Assembly: GCA_026398815.1 (NCBI GenBank)
Contig: JAPLSA010000017.1
Location: forward strand, 496,001 to 560,000
Source of the DNA: Gammaproteobacteria bacterium
GTDB lineage: Bacteria > Pseudomonadota > Gammaproteobacteria > Nevskiales > Nevskiaceae
Direction of reading: 5' to 3'
DNA length: 64,000 bases
This document shows positions 22,001-55,411 of this stretch, one piece after another (the first letter of the stretch is position 1; every line of letters begins with the position of its first letter). The notes below the pieces were generated by a model that did not search any database, was not told where the DNA came from, and saw nothing but the letters and a program-made list of their open reading frames with translations. The position numbers and the translations under genes were made by a program.

Positions 22001-22032
22001 GGCGCGTCGCCGCCGGCAGCGACGACGCTCAG
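21997..22032. terminator. Hairpin between convergent upp and GGDEF genes
   Basis: CTGAG..CGTCGC pairs with GCGACG..CTCAG across the 28-bp convergent gap, with a 3x3 internal loop. It overlaps both stop codons and could act in both directions. No clear T tract is present, so the call is tentative. Confidence 0.4.
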
Positions 22033-25721: not shown

Positions 25722-25938
25722 CGGAATTCGGTGACCTCCGGCTGCTGACAATGACAACGGTTCATCGCTCGCAAAAGCCCGGTGCAGTAATCATTCCCCA
25801 ACACGGCCTGCGCCGCCGCATCGGCAGGCGAGCCACCGGGCGGCCCCGCCGTGGCGTACCGCGGCGCCAGGCCGACGGCGGATTGCCCTCATCCGCAATC
25901 GGGTCGGCCAGGAAACGGATCCACGGCGCGGGGCGCAC

Positions 25939-28135: not shown

Positions 28136-28430
28136 GGGAGCGAGCCGCAGTTCGGATGCTTGCTCGCTTGCAATCGCCGTGCTCGACGGCAGCAGCGCAA
28201 AGCGTGACGGAAATGTGACGCTGCGGAATAGAGGCGTCAGCCACGCTGATTAATGGTGTTGGCTACGCGTGTTCACGAAAGCCAACTGTGTGAACGTTCG
28301 TATTTTTTCCTACCTTCGCCAGCACTTTCGCGAAAATGATGATCCGAATCACGTTTACCAGTACGCAGTGTGTTGATACTGTCTACAAAGACGGACAAAA
28401 CTTGGTCACGCCAGCAAAAGGATCTTGCAC
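28136..28430. other. 295-bp divergent region fliQ / rhs
   Basis: Left part is G+C rich like the host; from about 28250 it turns A+T richer (ATTTTTTCC, AAAATGATGATC), which marks the left edge of the imported segment. AAGGA at 28413-28417 is the Shine-Dalgarno for the RHS gene. No clear terminal repeat of a mobile element was found. Confidence 0.5.
28169..28184 (-). promoter_or_regulatory. Degenerate sigma-54-like site before fliQ
   Basis: Minus strand reads GAGCAC-GGCGA-TTGCA, against TGGCAC-N5-TTGCA. The -12 half is perfect but the -24 GG is AG. It lies about 35 bp before the fliQ ATG. It might drive the stranded fliQR-flhB block, but the -24 defect makes this weak. Confidence 0.25.
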
Positions 28431-35692: not shown

Positions 35693-36442
35693 TTAGGGCG
35701 TCGCGAAGCTCGACGCCAGCGTGCCCATCACCAGCGCCCAGCCATCGACCAGCACGAACAGCATCAGCTTGAACGGCAGCGAGATGATCACCGGGCTCAG
35801 CATCATCATGCCGAGGCTCATCAGCACGCTGGCCACCACCAGGTCGATGACCACGAACGGGATGAACAGCAGGAAGCCGATCTGGAATGCGGTGGTCAGT
35901 TCGCTGGTCAGGAACGAGGCCGCCAGCACCGCGAACGGCACTGCATCGGCATCGGCGTACGGGCCGTCGTTGCCGGCGATCTTCGCGAAGGTCATCAGGT
36001 CGGCCTCGCGGGTCTGGGCCATCATGAAGCCGCGAATCGGCTTGGCCGCCGCCGCCAGCGCCGGCTCGAACTGCATCTGGCCATCCAGATAAGGCTTGGC
36101 GGCATCGGTGTAGACCCGCTCGAACACCGGCTGCATCACGAACAGGGTCAGAAACAGCGCCAAGCCCACGAGGATCTGGTTCGATGGCGTACCGCCGGTG
36201 CCGAGTGCCTGCCGCAGCAGACCAAGCACGACGACGATGCGGGTGAACGCCGTCATCGCCAGCAGCGCTGCCGGCAGCAAGGTGAGCGCCGTCATCATCA
36301 ACAGCACTTGCAGACTCAAGGAGTAGCTCTGCCCGCCGCCCGGCGCCGGACTGACATTCAGGGCCGGCAGGCCACTACCCTGCGCGAAGGCATCGGCGAC
36401 CGGCAAAACCGTGAGCAGGATCGCCGCCAGCCCACCGGTCAT
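35693..36442 (-). CDS. fliP: FliP, flagellar export channel protein
   Basis: 249 residues from ATG 36442, close to the usual 245. A cleaved signal sequence (LAAILLTVLPVADAFAQ) is followed by SLSLQVLLMMTALTLLPAAL, MTAFTRIVVVLGLLRQALGT and PSNQILVGLALFLTLFVMQP, the hallmark FliP helices, and the C-terminal FIPFVVIDLVVASVLMSLGM MMLSP. The frame stays open 477 bp upstream, but that part is repeat DNA (HPGAGRNPV-type peptides) and I exclude it. The likely start lies within a degenerate copy of the repeat (36439-36465), and no good Shine-Dalgarno is seen. The gene is intact although both flanks are invaded. Confidence 0.93.
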   Translation of the reverse strand: MTGGLAAILLTVLPVADAFAQGSGLPALNVSPAPGGGQSYSLSLQVLLMMTALTLLPAALLAMTAFTRIVVVLGLLRQALGTGGTPSNQILVGLALFLTLFVMQPVFERVYTDAAKPYLDGQMQFEPALAAAAKPIRGFMMAQTREADLMTFAKIAGNDGPYADADAVPFAVLAASFLTSELTTAFQIGFLLFIPFVVIDLVVASVLMSLGMMMLSPVIISLPFKLMLFVLVDGWALVMGTLASSFATP

Positions 36443-36890
36443 GCCGGCGACGGCTGGCATCCAGCGCTGACGGGAGCGCTGCGGCACTGGATTCCGGCTT
36501 TCGCCGGAATGACGGTTGTTGGGTGTCATCGCCGATTCGAAGCCACCGTGAAAGTCAGCAATTGCAGCGGAAGCAGTGGCGGTAGCAGAAGCAGTGCTGC
36601 AACCCGCCAGCTCGTCATTCCGGCGAAAGCCGGAATCCAGCCCCTCACGGCTGCGCGACAGCATGACCACTGGATTCCGGCCTGCGCCAGGATGACGGTT
36701 GTCGGGGGTCATCGGCGATTCGAGGCCACCGTGAAAGTCAGCAGTTGCAGCGGAAGCAGTGGCGGTAGCAGAAGCAGTGCTGCAACCCTCCAGCTCGTCA
36801 TTCCGGCGAAAGCCGGAATCCAGCCCCTGACGGCTGTGCAACGGCATGACCACTGGATTCCGGCCTGCGCCAGGATGACGGTTGTCGAGG
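36439..36890. repeat. 183-bp tandem repeat built on dispersed palindromes, between fliO and fliP
   Basis: Two full units (36486-36668 and 36669-36851) and the start of a third (36852-36890), period exactly 183 bp. Each unit carries half-palindromes GTCATTCCGGCGAAAGCCGG and ACTGGATTCCGG..GGATGAC plus a constant spacer with GGAAGCAGTGGCGGTAGCAG. Paired palindromes lie at 36439-36515, 36614-36696 and 36797-36879 and match the inner core of the 16,566 element. As 183 is a multiple of three, the frame remains open on the minus strand in front of fliP. Confidence 0.9.
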
Positions 36891-36915
36891 GTCATCGAGG
36901 GATCCAGCCCAGCGC

Positions 36916-37299
36916 TCATGACTTCTGCCCCAGCGATTTCTTCAGCGCATCGCGGAAGGCCACTGCGAACGGCGGCAGTTCCGGCGCGCCGTCACCGCTG
37001 GCCGGCATCACCGGCGGCTCGGCGTAGACGTGCAGCGTGCTGACGCCGCCGGCCGATACGCCGATCAGCAGATGCTGGCCGCCCGCTTCGATCAGCAGCA
37101 CTTTTTCCTTGGCACCCACCTGCAGGCCGCCGTGGATGCGCAGGGACACGCCGCCGCCGACTCTCAATCCCTGCAGGCGCCGCAGGCCCCAGGCCAGCAG
37201 GAAGATCAGGCCCAGCACCACCAGCAGCGACAACGCCATCTGGCCGAAGCCGGGCAAGGTTGAAGCGGCGCTGGCGGCAGCGGCAGCAGGTGTGTTCAT
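36916..37299 (-). CDS. fliO: FliO, flagellar export assembly protein
   Basis: 127 residues: one TM segment near the N-terminus (GQMALSLLVVLGLIFLLAWG), a basic LRRLQG stop-transfer, then a small cytoplasmic beta domain (GGLQVGAKEKVLLIEAGGQH LLIGVS), the standard FliO pattern. FliO assists FliP assembly. ATG 37299, 35 bp after fliN. Normally fliO runs directly into fliP; here 473 bp of repeat DNA separate them. Confidence 0.92.
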   Translation of the reverse strand: MNTPAAAAASAASTLPGFGQMALSLLVVLGLIFLLAWGLRRLQGLRVGGGVSLRIHGGLQVGAKEKVLLIEAGGQHLLIGVSAGGVSTLHVYAEPPVMPASGDGAPELPPFAVAFRDALKKSLGQKS

Positions 37300-37334
37300 C
37301 GTCAGGCAGGCCGTCGATCGCGCAGGTTCGGGGC

Positions 37335-37700
37335 TTACTTGAGCTTGCGGATGCGTTCGGCCGGGCTGATCACATCGGTCAGGCGCACGCCGAATTTTTC
37401 GTTGACCACCACCACCTCGCCGTGGGCGATCAGGGTGCCGTTGACGTAGATGTCGAGCGGCTCGCCGGCAGCACGTTCAAGCTCGACGACCGAACCCTGG
37501 TTGAGCTGCAGCAGGTTGCGGATCGGAATCCGGGCGCGGCCGACTTCCATCGACAGGGTCACGGCGACATCGAGAATCACGTCGAGATTGAAGTCGCCGG
37601 TCGCCACGGCGGCCGCGCCTTCCAGGTTGTCGAAGCTGGCGCGGGCATAGTCCTTGGTGGCACTGGACGGGTTACCGGGGGTGTTGGTGGCGGCGGTCAT
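37335..37700 (-). CDS. fliN: FliN, flagellar motor switch protein
   Basis: C-ring protein. 121 residues from ATG 37700 (MTAATNTPG), preferred over a TTG at 37745 because AGGA lies upstream of it. The C-terminal SpoA/SURF1-like domain is complete: FNLDVILDVAVTLSMEVGRA, IRNLLQLNQGSVVELERAAG, PLDIYVNGTLIAHGEVVVVN and GVRLTDVISPAERIRKL. It lies 45 bp after fliM. Confidence 0.95.
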   Translation of the reverse strand: MTAATNTPGNPSSATKDYARASFDNLEGAAAVATGDFNLDVILDVAVTLSMEVGRARIPIRNLLQLNQGSVVELERAAGEPLDIYVNGTLIAHGEVVVVNEKFGVRLTDVISPAERIRKLK

Positions 37701-37745
37701 CGGCGGGTCCTGGGCGGTGGAGTCTGGAAGTGGAGAACGGGGCAA

Positions 37746-38735
37746 TCAGTGGACAGCGGCGCTGCGCGGGCCGCGACGGATCACTTCGCTGATCTTCACG
37801 GCGTTGCGGCCATTGGAGACGCCGAAGCTGCCGCGGAATACCGGCATCTCCTCGACGCACAGGTCGATGGTCTTCGGCAGGTTCATCGGCAGCACATCGC
37901 CGGGTTTCAGCTGCAGCAGCTGGCGCAGGCTCAAGGACATGCTGCCGAGCTGGCTGCCGATCTCGACTTCGGCTTCCTGCAGCTGCTCGCGCAGCGCCAA
38001 GCTCCAGCGCTCGTCCTTCTCGACGCGATCGGACTGCAGGCCGGTGTCGAGCTGATCGCGGATCGGCTCGATCATCGAATACGGAAACGTGATGTGCAGG
38101 TCGCCGCCGCCACCTTCAAGCTCGATCTTGAAGCGCGACACGACGACGATTTCCGATGGGCTGACGATGTTCGCGAAGTGCGGATTGACTTCGGAGTTCA
38201 TGTACTCGAACTCCATGTCCATCACCGGCGACCAGGCTTCGCTGAGGTCGGCGAAGGCCTGCTTGAGCAGCAGCTGGACGACGCGCATTTCGGTCGGCGT
38301 GAACTCGCGGCCTTCGATGCGGGTGTGGATCTTGCCGTCGCCGCCGAAGAAGTTCTCGACCACCGAATAGACCAGACGCGGCTCGAAGATGAACAGCGCC
38401 GTGCCCCGGAGCGGCTTGACCCGCACCAGGTTCAGGCTGGTCGGCACGAACAGCGAATGAGTGTATTCGCTGAATTTGGCCATCTCGATGCCGACCACCG
38501 ACAGCTCCGGCGAACGGCGCAGCATGTTGAACAGGCCGATCCGGAACAGGCGCGCGAAGCGCTCGTTGATCATTTCCAAGGTCGGCAGGCGGCCGCGGAC
38601 GATGCGGTCCTGGGTCGCGAAGTTGTAGTTGCGCGCTTCGCCGGGCACCGGCGGCGGCGCTTCGGTAGCCACCGAGCCGCTGTCGACCCCGTTGAGCAGC
38701 GCGTCGATCTCGTCCTGGGAAAGCAGATCCTGCAT
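37746..38735 (-). CDS. fliM: FliM, flagellar motor switch protein
   Basis: C-ring protein that binds CheY-P. 329 residues. The N-terminal CheY-binding peptide LLSQDEIDALLNG is at residues 3-15; the middle domain contains RLFRIGLFNMLRRSPELSVV and GTALFIFEPRLVYSVVENFF; the motif GGDGK is present; the C-terminal SpoA domain is PAS-free and ends SEVIRRGPRSAAVH. It lies 26 bp after fliL. Confidence 0.96.
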   Translation of the reverse strand: MQDLLSQDEIDALLNGVDSGSVATEAPPPVPGEARNYNFATQDRIVRGRLPTLEMINERFARLFRIGLFNMLRRSPELSVVGIEMAKFSEYTHSLFVPTSLNLVRVKPLRGTALFIFEPRLVYSVVENFFGGDGKIHTRIEGREFTPTEMRVVQLLLKQAFADLSEAWSPVMDMEFEYMNSEVNPHFANIVSPSEIVVVSRFKIELEGGGGDLHITFPYSMIEPIRDQLDTGLQSDRVEKDERWSLALREQLQEAEVEIGSQLGSMSLSLRQLLQLKPGDVLPMNLPKTIDLCVEEMPVFRGSFGVSNGRNAVKISEVIRRGPRSAAVH

Positions 38736-38761
38736 GGCGGGCTCCGGGCGCGGTGGCGGGC

Positions 38762-39358
38762 TTACTGCATGACGAAGCTGGTGAAGTACACGGCGTCGAC
38801 GCCGCTCTTGCCGGTTTCCGCCTTCAGGATTCGCTGGATCTCGGCGAGCACCTTCTTCTGCAGCGCTTCCTTGCCTTCGCGGGAATTGACCTCGGCCACG
38901 GTCTGCGTGCCCAGCAGCATCAGCAGCGCATTGCGGATCTGCGGGTCGTGCAGCTTCAGCGCGTCGGTGACGGCGGCATTCTTGGCCCGCACCTGCATTT
39001 CGATCTGCAGGAAGTGGGAGGCGTCGCTGTCGCCGATGTTGACGACGAACGACGGCGTCATCGGGTAGTAGATCGCCGAGGCGGCCTTCTTGCCGTCATG
39101 ACCGCCCTCGCCTTCGGCTGCCGCCTCCTCGCCGCTGCCGTCGTCCCCGGCTGCCGCAGCGGCTTCATCGGCCGCGCCGTGCTCGGCAGCGGCGACATCG
39201 CCATCGGCCTTGGCGTGGCGGGCCGGCTTCGCCGACGGCATCAGGAAGTACATCGCGCCGCCGGTGATCGCCGCCGTCGCCACCACCGCGCCGATGATCG
39301 GGATCAGCAGGGCTTTCTTGCTGCTGGGCGCTTTCGGGGCTTCGGCTGCTGCGGACAT
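38762..39358 (-). CDS. fliL: FliL, flagellar basal-body-associated protein
   Basis: 198 residues from ATG 39358, with AGGAG ten bases upstream. One N-terminal TM segment (KALLIPIIGAVVATAAITGG), an unusually long acidic/Ala-rich linker (about 50-95, GDDGSGEEAAAEGEGGHDG), and the periplasmic FliL domain (YYPMTPSFVVNIGDSDASHF LQIEMQVRA ... VYFTSFVMQ). Stabilises stators around the motor. A start further upstream (39418) is ruled out because it lies in the promoter. First gene of fliLMNOP. Confidence 0.95.
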   Translation of the reverse strand: MSAAAEAPKAPSSKKALLIPIIGAVVATAAITGGAMYFLMPSAKPARHAKADGDVAAAEHGAADEAAAAAGDDGSGEEAAAEGEGGHDGKKAASAIYYPMTPSFVVNIGDSDASHFLQIEMQVRAKNAAVTDALKLHDPQIRNALLMLLGTQTVAEVNSREGKEALQKKVLAEIQRILKAETGKSGVDAVYFTSFVMQ

Positions 39359-39401
39359 GGACGGCTCCTGGGGAATCGGGTCTTGCGGTTGCAAGCCCGG
39401 G

Positions 39402-39417
39402 AGCAAGCCATGTGCCA
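39402..39417 (-). promoter_or_regulatory. Sigma-54 promoter of fliLMNOP
   Basis: Minus strand TGGCACATGGCTTGCT is a perfect TGGCAC-N5-TTGCT -24/-12 element (GG-N10-GC), 44 bp before the fliL ATG. It implies RpoN control with a flagellar enhancer-binding protein (FleQ/FlrC type), as in class II/III flagellar operons of pseudomonads and vibrios. Confidence 0.85.
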
Positions 39418-39565
39418 CGCCGTCAGCGCGGCGGAATGTCGTTCGTCGTCAGCGGCTTGCAGCGAATATCCCAGCCGCGCCGGGAATCTGTCGCCACCCG
39501 GTCGCGAAAGCGCCCGGACGGGGCGACGGAAATGCGGCGCGGTGCAGGCGCAGCCGCCGGCCGCG

Positions 39566-43179: not shown

Positions 43180-44721
43180 ATGATTTCCATGTCCCGTTTC
43201 GATCGGCGTGGCGGGCGCGCCGTCGTCGCCATGCTGGCGCTGCTGATGATCGCGTTTGCAGTGCACCGGCTGGCGGATGCCACGCGCGGCCTGCGCATCA
43301 GCCATCTGCAGGTCGGCGACATGCCGGTCACGGTCTATGCGCCGGACCGCGACGAACCGGCGCCAACCGTGGTCATCGCCCACGGCTTCGCCGGCTCGCA
43401 GCAGCTGATGCAGCCGCTGGCGACCACACTGGCACGCGCCGGCTTCCTGGCGATCACCTTCGATTTCCCCGGCCACGGCCGCCACCCGCAACCGCTGGCC
43501 AGCGGCCTCGCCGACCAGCAGGCGATGTCGACGGCGCTGGTCGAGGCCTTGCGAGCGGTGGTGGCGATGGCGCGCAAGCGTCCCGAAAGTGACGGCCGGC
43601 TGGCGCTGCTCGGACATTCGATGGCCTCCGATGTCGTGGTGCGGCTCGGCATCGAGGACCCGTCGATCGCCGCGACCATCGCCGTGTCGATGTTCTTCCC
43701 GCGCGCCACCGACCGGCTGCCGCACAACCTGCTGATCATCGACGGCGCCTTCGAAGCCGGCGAGCTGATCCGCCAGGGGCTGGCCAGCATCCGCACGGCA
43801 GCCGGCGGCCAGCCGGAGGCCGGGCCGATCTACGGCCAGTTCGACAACGGCAGCGCCCGCCGGCTGGTTTTGGCGCGCGGTGCCGAGCACATCGGCGTGC
43901 TGTACGCGCGCGACACGCTGGACGCCGCGGTCGACTGGCTGTCCGGCGGCTTCCTGCAACCGGTCACCGGTCACTGGCGCGATCTTCGCGGCGGGCCGCT
44001 GGCGCTGCTGTTCGGCGGGCTGATGCTGCTGGCCTGGTCGCTGGCCGCACGGCTGCCGGTGCTGCGCGTTCCGCCGGACGGCCTGGCGCTGCCGCACCGG
44101 GCGCTGCTGCTCGATGCCGGCCTGCCGGCGATCGTCACGCCGCTGCTGCTGTGGCCGCTGCCGCACGACTGGCTGCCGCTGCTGCTCGGCGGCTATCTGG
44201 CGATGCACTTCGCGCTGTACGGCCTGCTGGTGGCGCTGATGCTGCGCCGTCGCGGCCTGCCGCTGCCCCGCCTCCGGCACTTCGACCGGCGCACGCTGGC
44301 GGTGCTGCTGACGGTGACCATCGCCTGCGCCGCCGCCTTCGGCTACGCGCTCGACCACTGGGTGGCCTCGGTGGCGCCGCATGCGCTGCGCTGGCCGCTG
44401 ATCGCGGTGATGACCGCCGGCCTGCTGCCGTACTTCGTGATCGACGAATGGATCACCCGCGGGCCGCAGCCGGCGCGGGGCGGCTACCTGCTGACCAAGC
44501 TGCTGCTGCTCGTCTCGCTGCTGCTGGCGGTGGCGCTGAACCCGTACGAGCTGTTTTTCCTGGTGATCATCGTGCCGGTGGTGCTGCTGCTGTTCCTGGT
44601 GTTCGGCAGCTTCAGCCGCTGGATCGGCCGCCGCACCGGCCAGCCGCTGATCGCGGCGGTCGCCAACGCCGTGCTGTTCGGCTGGCTGATCGCCGTCAGC
44701 TTTCCGGTGGTCGGCCGCTGA
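43180..44721 (+). CDS. Alpha/beta hydrolase with C-terminal multi-TM domain
   Basis: 513 residues. TM1 at about 13-30. An alpha/beta hydrolase domain spans ~45-270: oxyanion VVIAHGFAGSQQ, FPGHGRHPQ, nucleophile elbow GHSMAS (Ser), a late ID/His region ending ARGAEHIGVLY. From about 285 to 513 there are seven or so hydrophobic segments ending IAAVANAVLFGWLIAVSFPV. No characterised protein with this layout is recognised. Not BchO, which is a soluble hydrolase without this membrane part. It is divergent from bchI and its stop overlaps the heme oxygenase ATG (TGATG), so the two are coupled. Lipid or carotenoid-ester hydrolysis is possible but unproven. Confidence 0.8.
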   Translation: MISMSRFDRRGGRAVVAMLALLMIAFAVHRLADATRGLRISHLQVGDMPVTVYAPDRDEPAPTVVIAHGFAGSQQLMQPLATTLARAGFLAITFDFPGHGRHPQPLASGLADQQAMSTALVEALRAVVAMARKRPESDGRLALLGHSMASDVVVRLGIEDPSIAATIAVSMFFPRATDRLPHNLLIIDGAFEAGELIRQGLASIRTAAGGQPEAGPIYGQFDNGSARRLVLARGAEHIGVLYARDTLDAAVDWLSGGFLQPVTGHWRDLRGGPLALLFGGLMLLAWSLAARLPVLRVPPDGLALPHRALLLDAGLPAIVTPLLLWPLPHDWLPLLLGGYLAMHFALYGLLVALMLRRRGLPLPRLRHFDRRTLAVLLTVTIACAAAFGYALDHWVASVAPHALRWPLIAVMTAGLLPYFVIDEWITRGPQPARGGYLLTKLLLLVSLLLAVALNPYELFFLVIIVPVVLLLFLVFGSFSRWIGRRTGQPLIAAVANAVLFGWLIAVSFPVVGR

Positions 44722-45332
44722 TGCTGGCGCTGCGCCTGCGGCAGGCCACTGCCGCACGGCACCGCGAGGTCGAGGACAGCGCGCTGATCCGCCGGCTGCT
44801 GCGCGGCCAGCTCGACCGCCACGACTACTGCCGGCTGCTGCGCAACCTGCATCCGATCTACGCGACGCTGGAAGCGCGCCTGCCGGAAACGGCCTTGCCG
44901 CAGGCGATCCGCGATCCCCGGCTGGCCCGGTGCGCGGCGCTCGAAGCCGATCTCGAAAGCCTGCATGGCCGCGACTGGCAGCGCCTGCCGCTGACCGTGG
45001 CCGCCCACGCCTACCAGGCCCATCTGCAGACGCTGGATGCCGTGCGGCTGGGCGCGCACGCCTATGTGCGTTATCTCGGCGACCTGGCCGGCGGCCAGCC
45101 GCTGGGCCGGATCGTCGGCGACTGCTACGGCGTCGGGGTTGCCTTCCACCGCTTCCCGGAACCGGGCGCCGGGCCGCTGGCGGCCGCGTTCCGGGCGGCG
45201 CTCGACACGCTGCCGCTCGCCGAGGCCGAGGCGCAGGCGATGGTCGATGAAGCGGTGTCCGCTTTCGCTCGTCATGCCGCGCTGTTCGCGGCGCTTCAGC
45301 CCTTGCGATCGAGCCTGCGCAGCCGCCGGTAG
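44721..45332 (+). CDS. bphO: Biliverdin-producing heme oxygenase
   Basis: 203 residues, the size of bacterial heme oxygenases. The proximal-His helix LRLRQATAARHREVEDS (His about residue 14) and the distal helix with YVRYLGDLAGGQPLGRIVGD match the family (YxxxLxxLxGGQxLG). It should cleave heme to biliverdin IX-alpha, the chromophore of the bacteriophytochrome encoded convergently next door; the two 3' ends overlap by 37 bp. Translationally coupled to the upstream hydrolase. Confidence 0.93.
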   Translation: MLALRLRQATAARHREVEDSALIRRLLRGQLDRHDYCRLLRNLHPIYATLEARLPETALPQAIRDPRLARCAALEADLESLHGRDWQRLPLTVAAHAYQAHLQTLDAVRLGAHAYVRYLGDLAGGQPLGRIVGDCYGVGVAFHRFPEPGAGPLAAAFRAALDTLPLAEAEAQAMVDEAVSAFARHAALFAALQPLRSSLRSRR

Positions 45333-47479
45333 AGCGCGGCGGCCCGCTGCGTGGAAGCTTCCAGCTCTTCCAGCAGCGGCGCGATCTGGTCGCCGCCGGC
45401 GGCATCGGCGATCTCCATCGCCGCGACATTGGCGTTGGCGAGGATCGCGCCCACCACGTCGTCGGACTGCCGCAGCGGCGTGCCGCCCGCCCCCCGGGCG
45501 AGATCGCGTTCGGCCTGCAGCAGCGTGGTCTCGAAATGCCGGCGTGCCGACTCGGTCTGCTTGCGGGTGGTGAGGTCGCTGAGAATGACGATGAAGCCGA
45601 GGATCGAATCGCCGGCGCCCGGCACCACGTCGGCACGGACGCCGAGCGGCAGGGCCTCGCGGCCGGCAGTGACCAGTGCAGCTTCGCCGCGCCACGGCAG
45701 GCGCTCGCGCAGCAGGCGCCGCAGGTGGTCGCGCACGTCCTCGGGTTCGATGAACAGTCCGCCGAGATCGTCCAGCGTTTCCAGCTGCGCGCCGGGACTG
45801 CCGGGCAGGCGCTGGAAGGTTTCGTTCGAGTAGAGGATGCGGCCTTCGGGATCGGCGATCACCACCGGGTCCTTGGAGTTGCCGACCTGCGAGCGCACCA
45901 GGTTCAGCTGGTGCTGGGCGATCAGCAGCCGTACCGCCTGGATCTGCAGGATGATGTCGATCAAGGTCTGGCCGACCGCCTTGGCCAGCACCGTTTCGGC
46001 CCGGGTCCACGGCGCCGCCGTGCCGCGCACGATTTCCGACCAGGCGGCGAACGAGCGGCGCGGCGACAGCGTCAGCGGATCGTCGTTGATCACCGGCTTG
46101 GCCGGATCGCCGGCCCAGGTGTATTCGCAGGGCTGTTCCTTGCGGAACCACATCAGCCAGTCCGGCCGCGACGGCGACAACGGCACCGCCATCACGCCGC
46201 TGGCAGTGGCCGCCAGTGCGGCAAAGCCCGGATTGCGCCGCACCACCGACGAGCAGGTGTAGACGCCGCCCTCCATCGGCTGCACCGATACCCAGGCCAG
46301 CAGCGCGCGCAGGTCCGGCGTCGACGGCACGTCGCCAGCGGTCATCACTTCGCCGTCGTGAAACAGCGCGGCGCCGGTGGCATCGACCGGCGACAGCAGG
46401 GTGCGGGAATTGCGGAACAGCGCCATCCGCCAGTCGCCGTCGGTGGAGGTGGCCTCGATCATCCGCAGCTCGAGCCGCTTGACCAGCACCTCGACCTGGG
46501 ACTGCACGTAGTTCTCGATCGCGGCGATGCGCGTCGAGATCACCTCGGCCAACAGCTCCAGCAGCGCGCGCACCGGATACGGCACGTAGCGCGGCGCGTA
46601 GTGATGGCAGGCGATCAGCCCCCACAGCCGGCCCTCGCGGACCAGCGACACCACCAGCGTGCCGGTGACGCCCATGTTCTTCAGGTACTGCAGATGCAGC
46701 GGCGACATGCTGCGCAAATGGCACAGCGACATGTCCAGCTCGCTGCCGTCCGGCAGCCGGCGCGGCTCGATCGGCACCGGCTGGTAATGGACATCGACCA
46801 GCACCCGCACGCGGTTGCGGATGTACAGCTCGCGGGCGCGCTGCGGGATGTCGGTGGCCGGATAGTGGTGGCCGAGCAGCGAGTCGAGATCGCTGCGTCG
46901 CGCCTCGGCAATGATTTCGCCGTGCCCGTCGGGATCGAATTTGTAGACCATCACCCGGTCGTAGCCGGTGCGCTCGCGCACGCAGGCCACCACCGCTTCG
47001 GACAGGCTGGCGATGGTCGGGGCGCTGCTGAAGCGCTTGACCGCCATCGCCACGCCGGCGTGATCGACGGTGCCGGTCGATTCGTAGCCGGCGGCGCCAT
47101 CGCGGCGCTCCAGTTCGACGATCAGCACGCCGCCGGCATGGCGGTGCACGGTGCCGTCGAGCGCCACGTCGGCGCCGCCCCGGCTCACCGTGCAGTTCAG
47201 CGGCTGTGGTTCGGCCAGATCGCCGGCCGGATCGAGCGCCTTCAGCTGCGCGCCGAGCGTGCCGCCGATGCTGGCGATGTCGCGGCCGATCAGTGCGGCG
47301 GCCGCGATGCCGACGAAATCGCCGGCATTGGCGCTGGCCTGGACGATCGCGAAGCTGCGCTCGTCGACGCACAGCAGCACGCCGTGCGGCTGGATCGACC
47401 CGGCCAGGTGGATCAGCTCGCGTTCGCAGTTGCTGAGAGTCGCCTCGCCAAACGGCGGACTGGCGAGCACTTCGTTCAT
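45296..47479 (-). CDS. bphP: Bacteriophytochrome BphP without kinase ATPase domain
   Basis: 727 residues from ATG 47479 (GGAG upstream). PAS-GAF-PHY photosensor: biliverdin Cys18 in SNCERELIHLAGSIQPHG, the PATDIPQRAR motif (Asp about 210, usual PASDIP), GAF/PHY to about 500 with the PHY tongue region SRPDWLMWFRKEQPCEYTWA. Then a PAS domain (about 510-635; GNSKDPVVIADPEGRILYSN) and a helical end (ANANVAAMEIADAAGG...LLEELEASTQRAAALYRRL). No HATPase motifs and no clear phospho-acceptor His-Glu, so it is not a standard histidine kinase. The layout resembles Rhodopseudomonas palustris BphP1, which acts by binding PpsR2. It lies 55 bp after a PpsR-like gene. Confidence 0.93.
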   Translation of the reverse strand: MNEVLASPPFGEATLSNCERELIHLAGSIQPHGVLLCVDERSFAIVQASANAGDFVGIAAAALIGRDIASIGGTLGAQLKALDPAGDLAEPQPLNCTVSRGGADVALDGTVHRHAGGVLIVELERRDGAAGYESTGTVDHAGVAMAVKRFSSAPTIASLSEAVVACVRERTGYDRVMVYKFDPDGHGEIIAEARRSDLDSLLGHHYPATDIPQRARELYIRNRVRVLVDVHYQPVPIEPRRLPDGSELDMSLCHLRSMSPLHLQYLKNMGVTGTLVVSLVREGRLWGLIACHHYAPRYVPYPVRALLELLAEVISTRIAAIENYVQSQVEVLVKRLELRMIEATSTDGDWRMALFRNSRTLLSPVDATGAALFHDGEVMTAGDVPSTPDLRALLAWVSVQPMEGGVYTCSSVVRRNPGFAALAATASGVMAVPLSPSRPDWLMWFRKEQPCEYTWAGDPAKPVINDDPLTLSPRRSFAAWSEIVRGTAAPWTRAETVLAKAVGQTLIDIILQIQAVRLLIAQHQLNLVRSQVGNSKDPVVIADPEGRILYSNETFQRLPGSPGAQLETLDDLGGLFIEPEDVRDHLRRLLRERLPWRGEAALVTAGREALPLGVRADVVPGAGDSILGFIVILSDLTTRKQTESARRHFETTLLQAERDLARGAGGTPLRQSDDVVGAILANANVAAMEIADAAGGDQIAPLLEELEASTQRAAALYRRLRRLDRKG

Positions 47480-47534
47480 CGCTTCCCGGTCTCCGTCACG
47501 CAAGGGCTTGCCGATCGGACCACACGCGCCGCGT

Positions 47535-48746
47535 TCAGTGGATCGACGGGTCCGTCCGATCGTCGCCGGCCAGCGAACCGGCGTTGCCGGCGTACACCGG
47601 CCGGACGATGAAGCCGAACGCCTCGTCCTCGTTTTCCGCCAGGCAGACGGCGGCCACCTCGACGCGGGTCAGCCGGCCCGCCGCGCCGCGGATCGTGCTG
47701 CTGACGCGCTGGCTGTACAAGGCTTCGCGCATGCTGTTCATCAGCCGGTCGAGTTCGCCGGCCGTCGCTCCCAGCCAGTTCGACAGCGGGCTGCCGACGA
47801 CGACCGTGCGGATGTCGATCTGCGCCAGCTCGATGAACGCCGGATTGACCATCTGCACGCGTCCCTCGCCGTCGGTGACGACGATGGCATCCGGGCTCAG
47901 CGCCATCAGCGCCACCAGCCGCTGGTTCGCTTCCGGCACCTGCCATTGCGGATCGACCGTCTTCAGGCGCATCAGCAGCGCGGTGCTGGACTCGGTCCGC
48001 AGCGGCGTCACCGAAATCCGGACCCGGCGCTGCGGGCCGTCGATCAGCGCCTCGCAGTCGACCGCCCGGCCGCTGGCCTTGGCGGTGGCGAACAGTTCCA
48101 GCAGCGCCGGGCGCGAACTGTCGTGCAGCGGCAGGGTCGCGCGCTTGCCGATCAGCTGGTCGAGCGGCTGGCCGAACAGGCGGGCGGCTGCGCGGTTGGC
48201 GTCGATCACGTTCAGCGAACTGGCGTCGACGACCAGCACCGGATCGGTGGCGATCTGGAACAGCAGCTGGTAACGGGTTTCGCTCTGCCGACGCTGCCAG
48301 TACTCGCGCTCCATCTCGGCCTGGGCATGCACCAGGCGCTGCTGCATCGCCGACACCACGGTCATGTCGCGGCCGACCACCAGCAGCGGCCCGCCCGGCC
48401 CGAGGCGGACGGCCGAATAGGCGACCGGCACATCGAGTCCCAGCGGCGACGGATGGTTGACCTGCCGCGACCGCGACAGCCCGGTCGCCGACACGTCGGC
48501 GAGCAGCTGCTCGACCTTCTTGCGGGTTTCGATGGTGACGATGTCGGCGAAGCGGCGGCCGAGCCAGTCGTCGGCCATGGTCTTCACCGGTTCGCCGCCA
48601 CCGAGCGCGATGCGCTGGATCACGCCCTGGTCATCGACCACCAGCGCGATGTCGCTGGCGATCGACACCAGCATGTCGGCCAGCTCCGGCGCGAGGTTCG
48701 ACAACGCACCGAGCTTGCCGGCCTCGCTGGCGGCGGGCTCGTTCAC
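47535..48746 (-). CDS. PpsR paralogue with three PAS domains but no HTH
   Basis: 403 residues. Colinear with the full PpsR at 52,996: N-PAS (ASDIALVVDDQGVIQRIALG), the Q-linker helix (QQRLVHAQAEMEREYWQRRQ against QQRLVDAQQSMERDYWRLRH), PAS1 (ETRYQLLFQIATDPVLVVDA) and PAS2 (MALSPDAIVVTDGEGRVQMV). It stops just after PAS2 (FGFIVRPVYAGNAGS...SIH). The FIS-type HTH of PpsR is absent, and only 55 bp lie before the bphP start, so no remnant of it exists. It therefore should not bind DNA. It is upstream of bphP in one operon. I infer a partner that links the photoreceptor to PpsR, for instance by forming mixed oligomers. Confidence 0.9.
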   Translation of the reverse strand: MNEPAASEAGKLGALSNLAPELADMLVSIASDIALVVDDQGVIQRIALGGGEPVKTMADDWLGRRFADIVTIETRKKVEQLLADVSATGLSRSRQVNHPSPLGLDVPVAYSAVRLGPGGPLLVVGRDMTVVSAMQQRLVHAQAEMEREYWQRRQSETRYQLLFQIATDPVLVVDASSLNVIDANRAAARLFGQPLDQLIGKRATLPLHDSSRPALLELFATAKASGRAVDCEALIDGPQRRVRISVTPLRTESSTALLMRLKTVDPQWQVPEANQRLVALMALSPDAIVVTDGEGRVQMVNPAFIELAQIDIRTVVVGSPLSNWLGATAGELDRLMNSMREALYSQRVSSTIRGAAGRLTRVEVAAVCLAENEDEAFGFIVRPVYAGNAGSLAGDDRTDPSIH

Positions 48747-49011
48747 GACGCCGCCCTCCCGCGAAGGCAGACCGGCTCAGCTGCAAAAGGAAAAACCACG
48801 CAAGGCCTCAATGTCGTTGGTGCAGAGCACACGGTTAAGCCGGAAGCGCGATATTCAATCCTCGAAGACGAATCGAACAGCCCGGTCTGTCGTACGGCCG
48901 GGTCCCGCTGCCGAAAGGCGGCGGCGTGCAGCGCGGCAGGGTACAGCAAGTGCTTGTCCACGCATAGCATTTGCCGCCCCGGGCAGCCGCTTCCCGGGGC
49001 TCCGGAAAGCC
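48747..49011. other. 265-bp region upstream of the HTH-less PpsR/bphP operon
   Basis: Should hold the promoter of the operon. It is locally less G+C rich (GGAAAAACCACG; GATATTCAATCC). The best PpsR-like spacing found, TGT...ACA at 48812, is N14 and does not fit. Nothing else recognised. Confidence 0.4.
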
Positions 49012-49275
49012 TCAGTTCCAGCGTCGCCGGAGGTCGATCAGGTGGGCCGCCAGCGACCCGGTCAGGGCCAGCGCCAGCCATGGCCAGGCGGCTCCGGCGA
49101 TGACCGCGCGCAGGCCCAGCAGCAGGCAGAAACCGGAGCCGAGATTGGCCAGCCAGCGGTCCGGCGCCGGCGCCCGGCCGGCATACCGGTGCAGGCCGGC
49201 CAGCAGCAGGGCTTCGGCCAGCATCAGCGCCAGCACCAGATCGACGGCCCGGCCGCTGGCGAAGAAGGCATTCAC
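49012..49275 (-). CDS. Small membrane protein after bchP
   Basis: 87 residues from GTG 49275 (MNAFFASGRAVDLVLALMLA). Three hydrophobic segments: VDLVLALMLAEALLLAGL, LGSGFCLLLGLRAVIA and WPWLALALTGSLAAHLIDL, ending in a basic RRRWN. It lies 26 bp after bchP, so it is the last gene of the bchG operon. No family name is recognised. The GTG is the only start near bchP in this frame. The clear TM pattern supports it as a real gene. Confidence 0.65.
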   Translation of the reverse strand: MNAFFASGRAVDLVLALMLAEALLLAGLHRYAGRAPAPDRWLANLGSGFCLLLGLRAVIAGAAWPWLALALTGSLAAHLIDLRRRWN

Positions 49276-49301
49276 GGTGCGCGGCGCCTGACGTACCGTC
49301 C

Positions 49302-50501
49302 TCAGGCCCGTGCCAGGCCGAACAGGTGTGCCAGGTCCTTGAAGAAGATGCGCACGTGGGCCATCGGTTTCTTCCGTTCCAGTTTCTTGTTCATGTAGGC
49401 GTCGAAGGTCAGCTTCTGCACGTCGCGGTCCTCGCAGATCTTCACGAAGCTCTCCCGACGCTTCTCGGTGCCGTACCAGAACCGCTGCAGGATGCCGAGC
49501 ACCCAGAACACCTTGCCGTGCTCGCCCATGAAGCGCTTGCGGGCCAGCTTCAGCGAACTGGCGTCGCCGGTGACCAGCAGCGCCTCGACCGCCTGCGCCG
49601 CCAGATCGCCGCCCAGCATCGCGTAGTAGATGCCCTCGCCCGAGGCCGGGGCGACCACGCCGGCGGCATCGCCGGCCAGCACCACGTCGCGGCCGTTGTC
49701 CCAGCGCTTCAGCGGCTTCATCGGGATCGGCGCGCCTTCGCGACGCAGGGTTTCGCAGGCTGCGAGGCCGGTGCTGGCACGCAGGCTGCTGACCGAACCG
49801 CGCATCGAGAAGCCCTTGTGGGCGCTGCCGGTGCCGACGCTGACGGTATCGCCGTGCGGGAAGATCCAGGAGTAGAAATCCGGCGACAGCGCGCCCCGGT
49901 AGATCACGTCGCAGCGACGGGCGTCGTAGTCGATCCCGGTGGCGGCGGCAGCGGCTTGCGGCGCGCGGATGATCTCGTGGTAGGCGAACACGAACTTCAT
50001 CCGCTCCGCCCCCTTGACCTGCTGGCGGGCCAGCTGCGAGCGGGCGCCGTCGGCGCCGATCACGGCGGTGGCGCGCACCGATTCGAGCGTGCCGTCCGGC
50101 CGCCGGTAATGGATGCGGGCGACGCCGTCGGCATCGCGGCTCATCGATTCGAAGTGACCGGTCCGGCGCACCGCGCCATGCGTTTCGGCGCGCGCCCGCA
50201 GCCATTCGTCGAAGGCCGCGCGATCGACCATGCCGACGTAGCCGTTGTCGATCGGGATGTCGACGTGCCGGTCGGACGGCGCCACCATCCGCGCCGAGCC
50301 GATCCGCGCCACCAGCAGGTGGTCGGGAATCTGGTAGTCGCGGATGGCGCGCGGCGGAATCGCGCCGCCGCAGGGCTTGATACGCCCCGCCCGGTCGAGC
50401 AGCAGCACGCGGCGGCCGGTGCGTGCCAGCCGGTCGGCGGCCGTGGCGCCTGAAGGTCCGCCGCCGACCACCACCACTTCAAAGCGTTCGATATCGGTCA
50501 T
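49302..50501 (-). CDS. bchP: BchP, geranylgeranyl diphosphate/bacteriochlorophyll reductase
   Basis: Flavoprotein that reduces the geranylgeranyl tail to phytyl. 399 residues. FAD fingerprint VVVVGGGPSGATAADRLA at the N-terminus, KPCGGAIPPRAI (family CGGxxP), AVIGADGARSQLARQ, SWIFPHGDTVSVGTGS and the second FAD motif VLAGDAAGVVAPASGEGIYY are all present. Length is normal (390-400). The operon is bchG-pucC-like-bchP, with a 3-bp gap to the transporter. Confidence 0.95.
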   Translation of the reverse strand: MTDIERFEVVVVGGGPSGATAADRLARTGRRVLLLDRAGRIKPCGGAIPPRAIRDYQIPDHLLVARIGSARMVAPSDRHVDIPIDNGYVGMVDRAAFDEWLRARAETHGAVRRTGHFESMSRDADGVARIHYRRPDGTLESVRATAVIGADGARSQLARQQVKGAERMKFVFAYHEIIRAPQAAAAATGIDYDARRCDVIYRGALSPDFYSWIFPHGDTVSVGTGSAHKGFSMRGSVSSLRASTGLAACETLRREGAPIPMKPLKRWDNGRDVVLAGDAAGVVAPASGEGIYYAMLGGDLAAQAVEALLVTGDASSLKLARKRFMGEHGKVFWVLGILQRFWYGTEKRRESFVKICEDRDVQKLTFDAYMNKKLERKKPMAHVRIFFKDLAHLFGLARA

Positions 50502-52774: not shown

Positions 52775-52824
52775 TGTCAGCTGAGGCTTACACGGATGCC
52801 CGAAATCGTCAATTTAATCTGACA
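52775..52824 (-). promoter_or_regulatory. Tandem PpsR operators before bchG
   Basis: TGTCAGCTGAGGCTTACA at 52775-52792 is a perfect TGT-N12-ACA. CGTCAATTTAATCTGACA at 52807-52824 is the same with one imperfect half; read on the minus strand it is TGTCAGATTAAATTGACG and contains the likely -35 TTGACG. Centres are 32 bp apart, about three helical turns, which suits cooperative PpsR binding. The -10 is weak (TAAGCC after 16 bp). Confidence 0.75.
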
Positions 52825-52995: not shown

Positions 52996-54420
52996 TCACG
53001 CCGCCGGCTCCGGTTCGTCCGGACCGAGATCGCCAAGACCGTAGCGGCGCAGCTTGACGTACAGGCTCTGGCGACTCAGCCCCAGCATCTCGGCCGCCGA
53101 CGCCCGGTTGTCGCGCGTCAGTTCAAGCGCCGCCTCGATGCACAGCTTCTCGATCAGGTCGGTCGACTCCCGGACCAGTTCTTTCAGCGACACGCGCCCC
53201 ACCAGTTCGGTCAGCTGGTTCGCCGAGCGCGGCAGTTCCTGGCTCACCCGCGCCGTCACTGACGAGGAGGTGCGGCGGCCGACATCGCGAATGGTGAAGC
53301 CGAGGCACGGCAGATCGCCGTGCGGCACCGACACCGCCGACACCTCGACGTCGCTGCTCGCGCCGTGCTCGCCGCGCAGCACGGTCGAGAACAGGCGTAC
53401 CGAGCCGTGCTGGCGGATGCTGCCGATCAGCACGCTGAAATCGACGCCCGAGCGGCCCAGCCAGCGTTCCAGCGATTCACCGCGCAGCTGCGCTTCGGTG
53501 ACCGCCTGGGTCATGTCGATGAACGCGCGGTTGGCGCTGATCACCTGGCCTTCGGGATCGGTGACGACGAAGCCGTCCGGCATGCTTTCCATGACCTTGA
53601 CGATCGACCTCGGCACGGCGGAATCCGGGGCATCGCCACGGGTCGGCGACAGCCGGACAAGGAAGAACGAGCCGTTGTCCTGGCTGAACATCGACGCGGC
53701 GATCAGGAATTCGCGGGCGTCGGTCAGCAGCCGCACGCGGATGTCGTCACCGCGCCCGACCGCGCGCGCGCGCGCCAGCAGCAGGCCGATCGCCGCCATG
53801 CTGTCGCTGTCGAAACCTTCCGGGAACGCGCGGCCGACGACCTTGCGGGCGTTCTCGCCAAGCAGGTCGCCAGCGGCCGGATTGGCTTCGACGATCTTCT
53901 GGGTGGCGGCGTCGACGATCAGCACCGCTTCCAGCGACGACAGGAACAGCAGCCGGTAGCGGGTTTCGACGTGGCGCAGACGCCAGTAGTCCCGCTCCAT
54001 CGACTGCTGGGCATCGACCAGCCGCTGCTGCAGTTGGGCATTGGGCCGCAGGTCGCGCCCGAATGCCACCACCTGCCCTTCGGCGCCGACCTGCACGGCG
54101 GAATACAGCACCGGCACGTCCGTGCCGCGCGCCGAGTGATGGTTGACCTGGCGCCAGCGGCGCTCGGTCTTCGATGCGGCGTCACGCAGCAGGCTTTCGA
54201 CCTTGGCACGGCTTTCGACCGTCACCGTTTCCGCCCAGGTCTGGCCAATCCACTTGCGGCAGCCTTCGAGCAGCATGTCCTCGCTGCCGAGGGCGACATC
54301 GCGGATCACGCCGTTGCCGTCGAGCACCAGGGCGACATCGGCCGCCGCCGCGATCAGGTTGCTGGCCGCATCGGCGTCGAGGGCGCCGAGCACGCCGCCA
54401 CCGGTGATCTCGCGATTCAT
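52996..54420 (-). CDS. ppsR: PpsR/CrtJ, photosynthesis gene repressor
   Basis: 474 residues from ATG 54420, near the usual 464. N-PAS (AAADVALVLDGNGVIRDVAL), Q-linker, PAS1 (TRYRLLFLSSLEAVLIVDAA), PAS2 (MESMPDGFVVTDPEGQVISA) and a FIS-type HTH at the end (CIEAALELTRDNRASAAEML GLSRQSLYVKLRRYGL). The Cys at the start of the HTH (EKLCIEA) matches the redox-active Cys of known PpsR. Represses bch, crt and puc genes under oxygen. It lies 94 bp downstream of ppaA in the same direction. Confidence 0.96.
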   Translation of the reverse strand: MNREITGGGVLGALDADAASNLIAAAADVALVLDGNGVIRDVALGSEDMLLEGCRKWIGQTWAETVTVESRAKVESLLRDAASKTERRWRQVNHHSARGTDVPVLYSAVQVGAEGQVVAFGRDLRPNAQLQQRLVDAQQSMERDYWRLRHVETRYRLLFLSSLEAVLIVDAATQKIVEANPAAGDLLGENARKVVGRAFPEGFDSDSMAAIGLLLARARAVGRGDDIRVRLLTDAREFLIAASMFSQDNGSFFLVRLSPTRGDAPDSAVPRSIVKVMESMPDGFVVTDPEGQVISANRAFIDMTQAVTEAQLRGESLERWLGRSGVDFSVLIGSIRQHGSVRLFSTVLRGEHGASSDVEVSAVSVPHGDLPCLGFTIRDVGRRTSSSVTARVSQELPRSANQLTELVGRVSLKELVRESTDLIEKLCIEAALELTRDNRASAAEMLGLSRQSLYVKLRRYGLGDLGPDEPEPAA

Positions 54421-54514: not shown

Positions 54515-55411
54515 TCATTGGGGATTCGCCCGACGGGGCGCCAGTATCTCAGCCTCGAGCACCGCCGTGCGCGCATCGCTGGCGGTGGCGTCGGCGCCGA
54601 GCAATCCGGCCAGCTGCGGATTGGCCGTCAGCTCCGGACCACCGAGCATGATCCGTACCGACGGGTTGTGGGACACGCGGCGCAGCGCCGCCAGCCACGA
54701 GGCCAGGCCGTTGAGCCGGCATTCCGAGCCGACCGAGATGCCGATCACGTCGAACCACTGGCTCGCCACCTGCACGGCCACTTCCTCGGTCGACGTGCTG
54801 GGCCCGCCGACCACTTCCCAACCCGACCGCAGGAAGAACTCGCGGAGCATCATCAAGCCCATCGCGTGCTGCTCGCCCGGGGCCGGCGCCAGCAGGATCC
54901 GCCGCGCCTCGACCGGCGCGCTGTCGCGGGTTTCGCGGAATGCCGGGCTGAACTCGCGGATCACGTGCTGGATGCGGCCCAGCGCCATCGTCACTTCGAC
55001 GAAATCGCAGAGGTCCTGGCTCCACAGTTCGCCGATGTGACGCGCCGCCGGCGCCAGCAGGTGCAGATACAGGGTTTCAAGCAGAAAGCCCTGATCGACC
55101 ATCGCCTCGATGTAACGCGACGCCGCCGTGGCGTCCTGCACCAGAACCAGGCCGGCGAACTCGGCGATGTGCTCGCGGGTCGGCAGTTCAACGAGCACGC
55201 CGGCCTCTGCCACCAGGCTGGCTGCACCTTTATGGGCCAGCAGCAGGCGCGGAATGATTTCCGACTCGATCGTGCGGATCAGCGGTGCGATTTCCGCTTC
55301 GCCGACCGCCACCAGCACGCCGGGCGCACCGGCGCCGGGTTCCGCCACGGATTCGCCACTGCGATCTCGTGCTGACGGCACCGACCTATCACCCTGATTG
55401 AAGCCAAGCAT
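54515..55411 (-). CDS. ppaA: PpaA/AerR, B12-domain antirepressor of PpsR
   Basis: 298 residues. A helical cap (IESEIIPRLLLAHKGAASLV; EAMVDQGFLLETLYLHLLAP AARHIGELW) and a cobalamin-binding Rossmann-like domain (RRILLAPAPGEQHAMGLMML; WFDVIGISVGSECRLNGLAS; VRIMLGGPELTANPQLAGLL GAD). The DxHxxG motif of methylcobalamin enzymes is absent, as is normal for AerR/PpaA; APGEQHAMG carries the His used as ligand in the family. It modulates PpsR in response to light through the cobalamin. Upstream neighbour of ppsR. ATG with GAGAGGG nine bases before it. Confidence 0.92.
   Translation of the reverse strand: MLGFNQGDRSVPSARDRSGESVAEPGAGAPGVLVAVGEAEIAPLIRTIESEIIPRLLLAHKGAASLVAEAGVLVELPTREHIAEFAGLVLVQDATAASRYIEAMVDQGFLLETLYLHLLAPAARHIGELWSQDLCDFVEVTMALGRIQHVIREFSPAFRETRDSAPVEARRILLAPAPGEQHAMGLMMLREFFLRSGWEVVGGPSTSTEEVAVQVASQWFDVIGISVGSECRLNGLASWLAALRRVSHNPSVRIMLGGPELTANPQLAGLLGADATASDARTAVLEAEILAPRRANPQ

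Follow-up and report, generated by a model that had tools for sequence, protein, structure and literature searches.

A PpsR relative without a DNA-binding domain, encoded beside a bacteriophytochrome gene in Nevskia-type genomes

The HTH-less gene and its neighbourhood

The window (the whole 64,000-nucleotide stretch of DNA that was analysed) carries an HTH-less ppsR-type gene, a bacteriophytochrome gene and a full-length ppsR among the following genes and sites:

47535..48746, minus strand: HTH-less gene with a GTG start, 403 aa, PpsR2 orthologue (hereafter PpsR-delta)
45296..47503, minus strand: bphP, RpBphP1-like, start TTG at 47503 or ATG at 47479
44700..45332, plus strand: bphO, heme oxygenase (biliverdin supply; PF01126, E 7.9e-36), convergent with bphP, start approximate
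52996..54420, minus strand: full-length PpsR (PpsR1 type) with a Fis-type HTH and Cys427
54515..55411, minus strand: gene that we take to be aerR/ppaA-like, upstream of ppsR and adjoining it in related loci too
48810..48838 (within 48802-48842), minus strand: putative promoter-like block TTAACC-N17-GACATT upstream of PpsR-delta
52775..52824: PpsR-box-like pair upstream of bchG (TGTN12ACA at 52775-52792 and CGTN12ACA at 52807-52824, the latter found by eye)

PpsR-delta and bphP are both read from the minus strand, and translations of the plus strand give other proteins. With domain limits taken from the alignment, PpsR-delta consists of N-PAS, Q-linker, PAS1 and PAS2, a variable linker and a conserved tail, DPSIH. 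Against Pfam, at E up to 1, it matched PAS families and gave no match to an HTH family. It covered positions 1-361 of the 442 of TIGR02040, the PpsR equivalog model, with 274.5 bits, just below the curated cut-off of 275.4, which four of the seven Nevskia copies pass and three fail. PpsR-delta thus has the N-PAS, Q-linker, PAS1 and PAS2 of that family in order and groups among PpsR proteins in the tree (see below), and it lacks the C-terminal Fis-type HTH (PF02954) and the redox cysteine within it. The full-length PpsR of the window, to which PpsR-delta is 36% identical across 348 aa, was covered by TIGR02040 from 1 to 442 with 538.6 bits and has HTH_8 at residues 423-460 (E 4.4e-11). No remnant rose above background when the six reading frames of 45001-49500 were searched with a PpsR HTH profile, which gave 168 bits in the control region. 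The alignment to PDB 4hh2, a PpsR without the HTH, spans PpsR-delta residues 13-382. These results bear out the earlier note, which had described a natural loss of the HTH in a protein that keeps the four N-terminal elements and then ends. A sequencing error or frameshift that hides an HTH, named there as a possible refutation, is excluded, since six more genomes share the tail motif and no HTH was found in the six frames.

The operon-like position upstream of bphP that had been claimed for the gene was likewise confirmed: the two genes share a strand, and the PpsR-delta stop is separated by 31 nt from the first possible bphP start (TTG 47503). The BphP protein matched PAS, GAF, PHY and PAS9 families, with no histidine kinase match, and ends in a C-terminal tail of about 85 residues in the place of HOS, which we judged from the position and length of the tail. 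Its best PDB match was 4gw9 (E 6.4e-185 over 12-649), which is described as RpBphP1 without HOS (PMC6899989).

The promoter-like block upstream of PpsR-delta recurs as TTRACC-N17-GAYNTY in five of the six Nevskia loci with bphP and as TAAACC-N16 in the sixth (L039), and is missing from G014 in the upstream alignment of Nevskia loci; its promoter role is putative. The PpsR box TGTN12ACA occurs 12 times in the window compared to 4.8 expected, a number reached by none of 100 shuffles, and among these 12 sites only that at 52775 was assigned to the start of a gene. We considered a PpsR box at the PpsR-delta promoter and dropped it, the nearest TGTN12ACA (48650-48667) lying within the coding sequence.

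Further genes of the window include an alpha/beta hydrolase-fold gene between bchI and bphO (43180-44721, plus strand), also present in six of the seven same-genus loci L034-L040, and a small conserved ORF after bchP (49012-49290, minus strand), found in six of the same seven loci and in L105 and L107. The window also contains a multi-PAS diguanylate cyclase (22029-25757, minus strand), an ORF of 1633 residues with an RHS-repeat match (28425-33326, plus strand) and the flagellar genes fliP, fliM and fliL (35693-39418, minus strand), which adjoin the photosynthesis cluster.

Origin in the bphP-linked PpsR2 clade and repeated HTH loss

A tree was built from the PAS columns of 76 PpsR proteins, leaving out the duplicate loci L046, L048, L050 and L051 and short fragments. 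The seven Nevskia HTH-less proteins (100/100) were sister to 32 PpsR2 proteins, 30 of which came from a Burkholderiaceae survey and two from named records; together they made up a clade of 39 rows (100/100). Among these 32, 26 directly precede a close BphP relative and 31 retain the HTH. Judged from this placement, PpsR-delta is the orthologue of a bphP-linked PpsR2 that mostly bears an HTH in Burkholderiaceae. The tree puts PpsR-delta in the second paralogue clade, which led us to reject the idea that it is a cut-down copy of the PpsR next to it; the earlier note was right in seeing a PpsR relative without the HTH, and its reading is refined here to a descent from bphP-linked PpsR2 and not from that neighbour.

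The HTH of PpsR2 differs from that of PpsR1 even where it is present. HTH scores were 11.7-58.4 bits in 31 PpsR2 rows compared to 148-170 bits for 18 PpsR1 rows, mostly ones used to train the profile; alphaproteobacterial PpsRs gave 88-122 bits in 15 rows outside the profile training. Identity in the recognition helix was 38.5% in 26 PpsR2 (of the 31 HTH-bearing rows, the five without an adjacent close bphP being left out) versus 93.3% in seven Burkholderiales PpsR1, and the order was reversed in the N-PAS, with 61.0% in PpsR2 versus 49.9% in Burkholderiales PpsR1. The HTH cysteine is missing in all 26 Burkholderiaceae PpsR2 and present in 17 of the 18 PpsR1 compared. However, the dN/dS of the Burkholderiaceae PpsR2 HTH was 0.04-0.28 (seven of nine pairs with a defined value), compared to 0-0.04 in Nevskia PpsR1. 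We accordingly do not claim that all Burkholderiaceae PpsR2 are dead for DNA binding; PpsR2 in general may bind other DNA, because selection on the divergent HTH remains purifying, which counts against the reading favoured below. Three Bradyrhizobium-type PpsR2 encoded beside BphP, which have a recognisable HTH (62-85 bits), also count against that reading.

Loss of the HTH extends beyond Nevskia. A search for further HTH-less PpsR relatives and their neighbours, which had been proposed earlier, found them in Nevskia, in G1033 and in g755, mostly beside BphP. In g755, a different Burkholderiales genus, a Bradyrhizobium-type PpsR2 lies beside a BphP with 44-48% identity to that of the window and is HTH-less in three of four genomes; the fourth, G1547, has a weak HTH (26.5 bits), and a fifth g755 genome (G1588) gave neither a PpsR2 nor a BphP match. 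In a second tree of 33 rows, picked from a larger alignment, G1547 formed a group with one of the HTH-less copies (100/99) and the remaining two stood apart (100/100); two losses in g755 are therefore likelier than one loss followed by a regain (L052 and G1756 were treated as one genome because of their equal ORFs). In G1628 and G1665 the matches read through one TGA, the PpsR2 stop, and no HTH was seen after it. The dN/dS of this HTH-less pair was 0.06 in the Q-linker, 0.10 in N-PAS and 0.42 in PAS2, the same gradient as in Nevskia (see below). The HTH-less PpsR2 of G1033 sits on a long branch and has no linked bphP. Taken together, the trees point to four or more losses of the HTH, each within a PpsR2 lineage (Nevskia, G1033 and two in g755), with four as the likeliest count.

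No HTH-less PpsR1 was seen among the best 4 to 6 candidates scored per genome in our surveys. The other short rows were ended by contig ends (G928, G1153), keep the HTH (G1283) or are split in a single frame, their HTH being present (G1582, G1695, G1724). In the order Rhizobiales, surveyed with the best four candidates per genome, 69 of 347 genomes contributed a total of 83 rows, none of them HTH-less, and a plasmid search gave PpsR relatives only at 26-32% identity, in 5 of 72,556 records. Two loci showed other arrangements. An alphaproteobacterial PpsR (L101, 4307-5461) has the opposite architecture, with a shortened PAS region and a retained HTH (93.5 bits), and its gene is divergent from a BphP gene with an 875-residue product. 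G1505 carries three PpsR copies (L086, L087, L088), two of which lie beside BphP genes that are about 45% identical, over nearly their full length, to that of the window.

Conservation, selection and co-occurrence with BphP

The same-genus set comprised 18 genomes, several of them metagenome-assembled, of a genus that we infer to be Nevskia. PpsR was found at E up to 1e-40 in eight of them, seven of which have both the HTH-less form and a full PpsR1; G012 has PpsR1 alone, without the HTH-less gene. The six other Nevskia HTH-less proteins are 62-87% identical to PpsR-delta and share its tail motif. The gene lies within the photosynthesis cluster together with PpsR1 in 7/7 Nevskia genomes and directly before bphP in 6/7, and all six genomes with a linked bphP have it. 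That a natural PpsR relative with no DNA-binding part is kept beside a bacteriophytochrome gene, an arrangement that apparently arose more than once, suggests that it acts via protein partners and not via DNA.

PpsR-delta is under purifying selection, which is strongest in the Q-linker. Mean pairwise identity among the seven Nevskia proteins was 93% in the Q-linker, 83% in N-PAS, 76% in PAS1 and 60% in PAS2. In nine pairs, dN/dS was 0-0.08 in the Q-linker, 0.07-0.26 in N-PAS, 0.07-0.48 in PAS1 and 0.11-0.40 overall; in PAS2 it was 0.26-0.56 in eight pairs and 0.13 in the ninth, making this the least constrained PAS domain in eight of the nine. These values led us to reject a pseudogene in Nevskia. 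They also make it highly improbable that PpsR-delta is a decaying relic of PpsR2 on its way to loss: it does evolve faster than PpsR1, and the long-branched, bphP-unlinked copy of G1033 would fit decay, but the frame is open in 7/7 Nevskia genomes and the tail is conserved despite synonymous change. For G1033 itself, decay may well be the right reading.

The tail, D-[PS]-S-[IV]-H (DPSIH, DSSIH or DPSVH; 47538-47552 on the minus strand of the window and in L034-L039), is found in 7/7 Nevskia proteins after a fast-changing linker, its DNA differing synonymously and its protein sequence being conserved. Of 26 HTH-bearing PpsR2 from Burkholderiaceae, 10 have a comparable C-terminus, [LSA][IL]N. 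Both ends hint at an extra partner and, together with the drift of the PpsR2 HTH away from that of PpsR1, could be explained if BphP and PpsR2 formed a light module that acts on something other than PpsR1 (e.g. AerR or another partner), the resemblance to PpsR reflecting ancestry only. We consider this explanation rather unlikely, as nothing links PpsR-delta to such an output and its gene accompanies PpsR1 in the photosynthesis cluster of all seven Nevskia genomes.

Residue numbers of 4hh2 were transferred via the alignment. The residues matching Q134 and E138 of the Q-linker were unchanged in every group checked. In PAS2, the residues named for tetramer contact were changed in six (R339) and seven (L340) of the seven Nevskia proteins, and some PpsR contacts are therefore lost, which counts against the favoured reading. 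The 4hh2 protein, Rhodobacter sphaeroides PpsR without the HTH, is described as a dimer that can tetramerise, with a coiled-coil Q-linker that is also the AppA site (PMC3949515). PpsR-delta has an equal domain span and differs from this crystallisation construct in being the product of a natural gene; at the two PAS2 positions, most or all of the Nevskia proteins differ from it.

The HTH-less proteins of Nevskia share an invariant cysteine close to the PAS2 end (7/7), and three PAS domains are kept. An alternative explanation is thus a PAS-based sensor adaptor for redox or a ligand, with light as a side input and with constraint arising from ligand binding and dimerisation. We regard this as quite improbable, because the HTH cysteine of PpsR redox control was lost with the HTH and is also missing from the 26 Burkholderiaceae PpsR2, and because PAS2 is the PAS domain under the least constraint in eight of nine pairs.

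BphP and PpsR2 co-occur in one direction. In Burkholderiaceae, among the best four candidates per genome, 64 genomes had a PpsR, and a close BphP relative (E below 1e-200, 52-60% identity) was present in 27 of these, all among the 30 with PpsR2, compared to none of the 34 without PpsR2 (Fisher p 5e-15, uncorrected for kinship). All 30 PpsR2 were placed by tree, single-copy Burkholderiaceae PpsRs were taken as PpsR1 by score and mostly without a tree, and weak second copies may be missed when the best 4 to 6 candidates are scored per genome. The PpsR2 count does not include the G1153 rows, which together make up a single PpsR on two contigs. Three genomes have PpsR2 but no close BphP relative, namely G864 (80% complete) and G1033 and G999 (both given as 100% complete). 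In G1083, G1010 and G1204, the close BphP lies on a different contig from the PpsR2 found, which counts against the favoured reading.

In Nevskia, G014 retains the HTH-less gene, but bphP and bphO have been lost from its locus, within a single contig; no BphP match was found elsewhere in this genome, which is 95% complete. The dN/dS on its HTH-less branch was 0.25 compared to 0.22 and 0.23 on the two sister branches, although the loss of bphP may be too recent for relaxation to show. Given G014 and the one-way co-occurrence, BphP seems to need PpsR2 and not the reverse, as far as gene content indicates. This bears on a further explanation, offered in the earlier note, that PpsR-delta is a shield or decoy that only occupies BphP and keeps it off PpsR1, with no action of its own on PpsR1. 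Its position directly before bphP in six of seven Nevskia genomes would fit a shield, as would the tight constraint on the Q-linker; this linker belongs to Q-PAS1, which has been described as the smallest part of R. palustris PpsR2 that binds BphP1 (PMC7555876). Nevertheless, the similar constraint on the G014 gene, with no BphP match in the genome, and the retention of PpsR2 in G1033 and G999 disfavour a pure shield, which we consider unlikely.

Candidate mechanism and known systems

Overall, a dominant-negative or relay subunit would fit best among the roles offered so far, and we give about an even chance to the reading in which PpsR-delta is a non-DNA-binding PpsR subunit that relays a BphP signal to PpsR1 by hetero-oligomerisation. 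This reading is favoured because of the HTH loss, the conservation, the purifying selection, the gene order with bphP, the repeated losses and the one-way co-occurrence. By homology, PpsR-delta would fold like the solved HTH-less PpsR and dimerise via N-PAS, Q-linker and PAS1. With full-length PpsR1 it could form hetero-oligomers that bind paired palindromes poorly, which would lower repression of photosynthesis genes. BphP in one of its light states would bind PpsR-delta, probably through the Q-linker and PAS1, as with Q-PAS1, and such binding would link far-red light to the amount of active PpsR1; either sign fits the data. In other words, a DNA-free PpsR that dimerises via its conserved N-terminal half could poison PpsR1, gated by BphP. 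A broader proposal, which we hold tentatively and rate somewhat below an even chance, is that bphP-linked PpsR2 lineages are turning from a repressor into a DNA-free photoreceptor adaptor. The HTH would have drifted in Burkholderiaceae and been deleted about four times, and the Nevskia BphP would control PpsR1 only via a PpsR subunit that does not bind DNA and acts as a natural, light-gated dominant-negative without HTH-HOS docking.

Among the closest known systems is the R. palustris PpsR2/RpBphP1 pair, which forms a light-dependent complex (PMC6899989, PMC10569730). Similar to Rhodopseudomonas palustris and Bradyrhizobium, the Nevskia locus has a PpsR paralogue beside BphP, a photosynthesis cluster and a second PpsR; the difference is the HTH, which is present in the known PpsR2, described as a repressor, and absent from the Nevskia form. 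BphP1 serves in near-infrared optogenetics paired with PpsR2 or Q-PAS1, and the docking of the partners has been pictured differently, as an HTH-HOS bundle or through Q-PAS1. The R. palustris complex has been modelled from SAXS with the BphP HOS helices docked on the PpsR2 HTH (PMC6899989). If the Nevskia pair binds, this docking cannot apply to it because the Nevskia PpsR2 has no HTH, and by analogy a contact of the Q-PAS1 type can hold. The parallel that had been drawn earlier with engineered Q-PAS1, the optogenetic partner of BphP1, is borne out (PMC7555876) in that both are HTH-free and have the Q-linker and PAS1, but PpsR-delta, unlike the man-made minimal unit, also retains N-PAS, PAS2 and a conserved tail. 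Natural HTH-less BphP partners are in effect evolution's deletion experiment: if BphP is bound, the HTH cannot be essential. They offer compact natural partners for BphP, and the route of far-red light to PpsR becomes directly testable.

Natural antagonists without a DNA-binding domain have been described among LuxR-type regulators gated by acyl-homoserine lactone, namely TrlR, a frameshift allele that antagonises TraR in Agrobacterium (PMC6341043), and CerN, which antagonises CerM in Cereibacter sphaeroides (PMC11655674). Like these, PpsR-delta shares the cell with a full-length paralogue whose DNA-binding domain it lacks. In contrast to these proteins, it is a PAS protein, is kept across the genus and is encoded beside a photoreceptor gene, and it appears as a transcription-factor paralogue that has shed DNA binding with its gene still in that position. 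The accessible part of the open-licence literature yielded no natural HTH-less PpsR. It does describe ORF350 of Roseateles depolymerans, a crtJ homologue and second PpsR-like gene in the photosynthesis cluster (PMC10037100), and this gene may encode an HTH-less PpsR2 that was noticed earlier.
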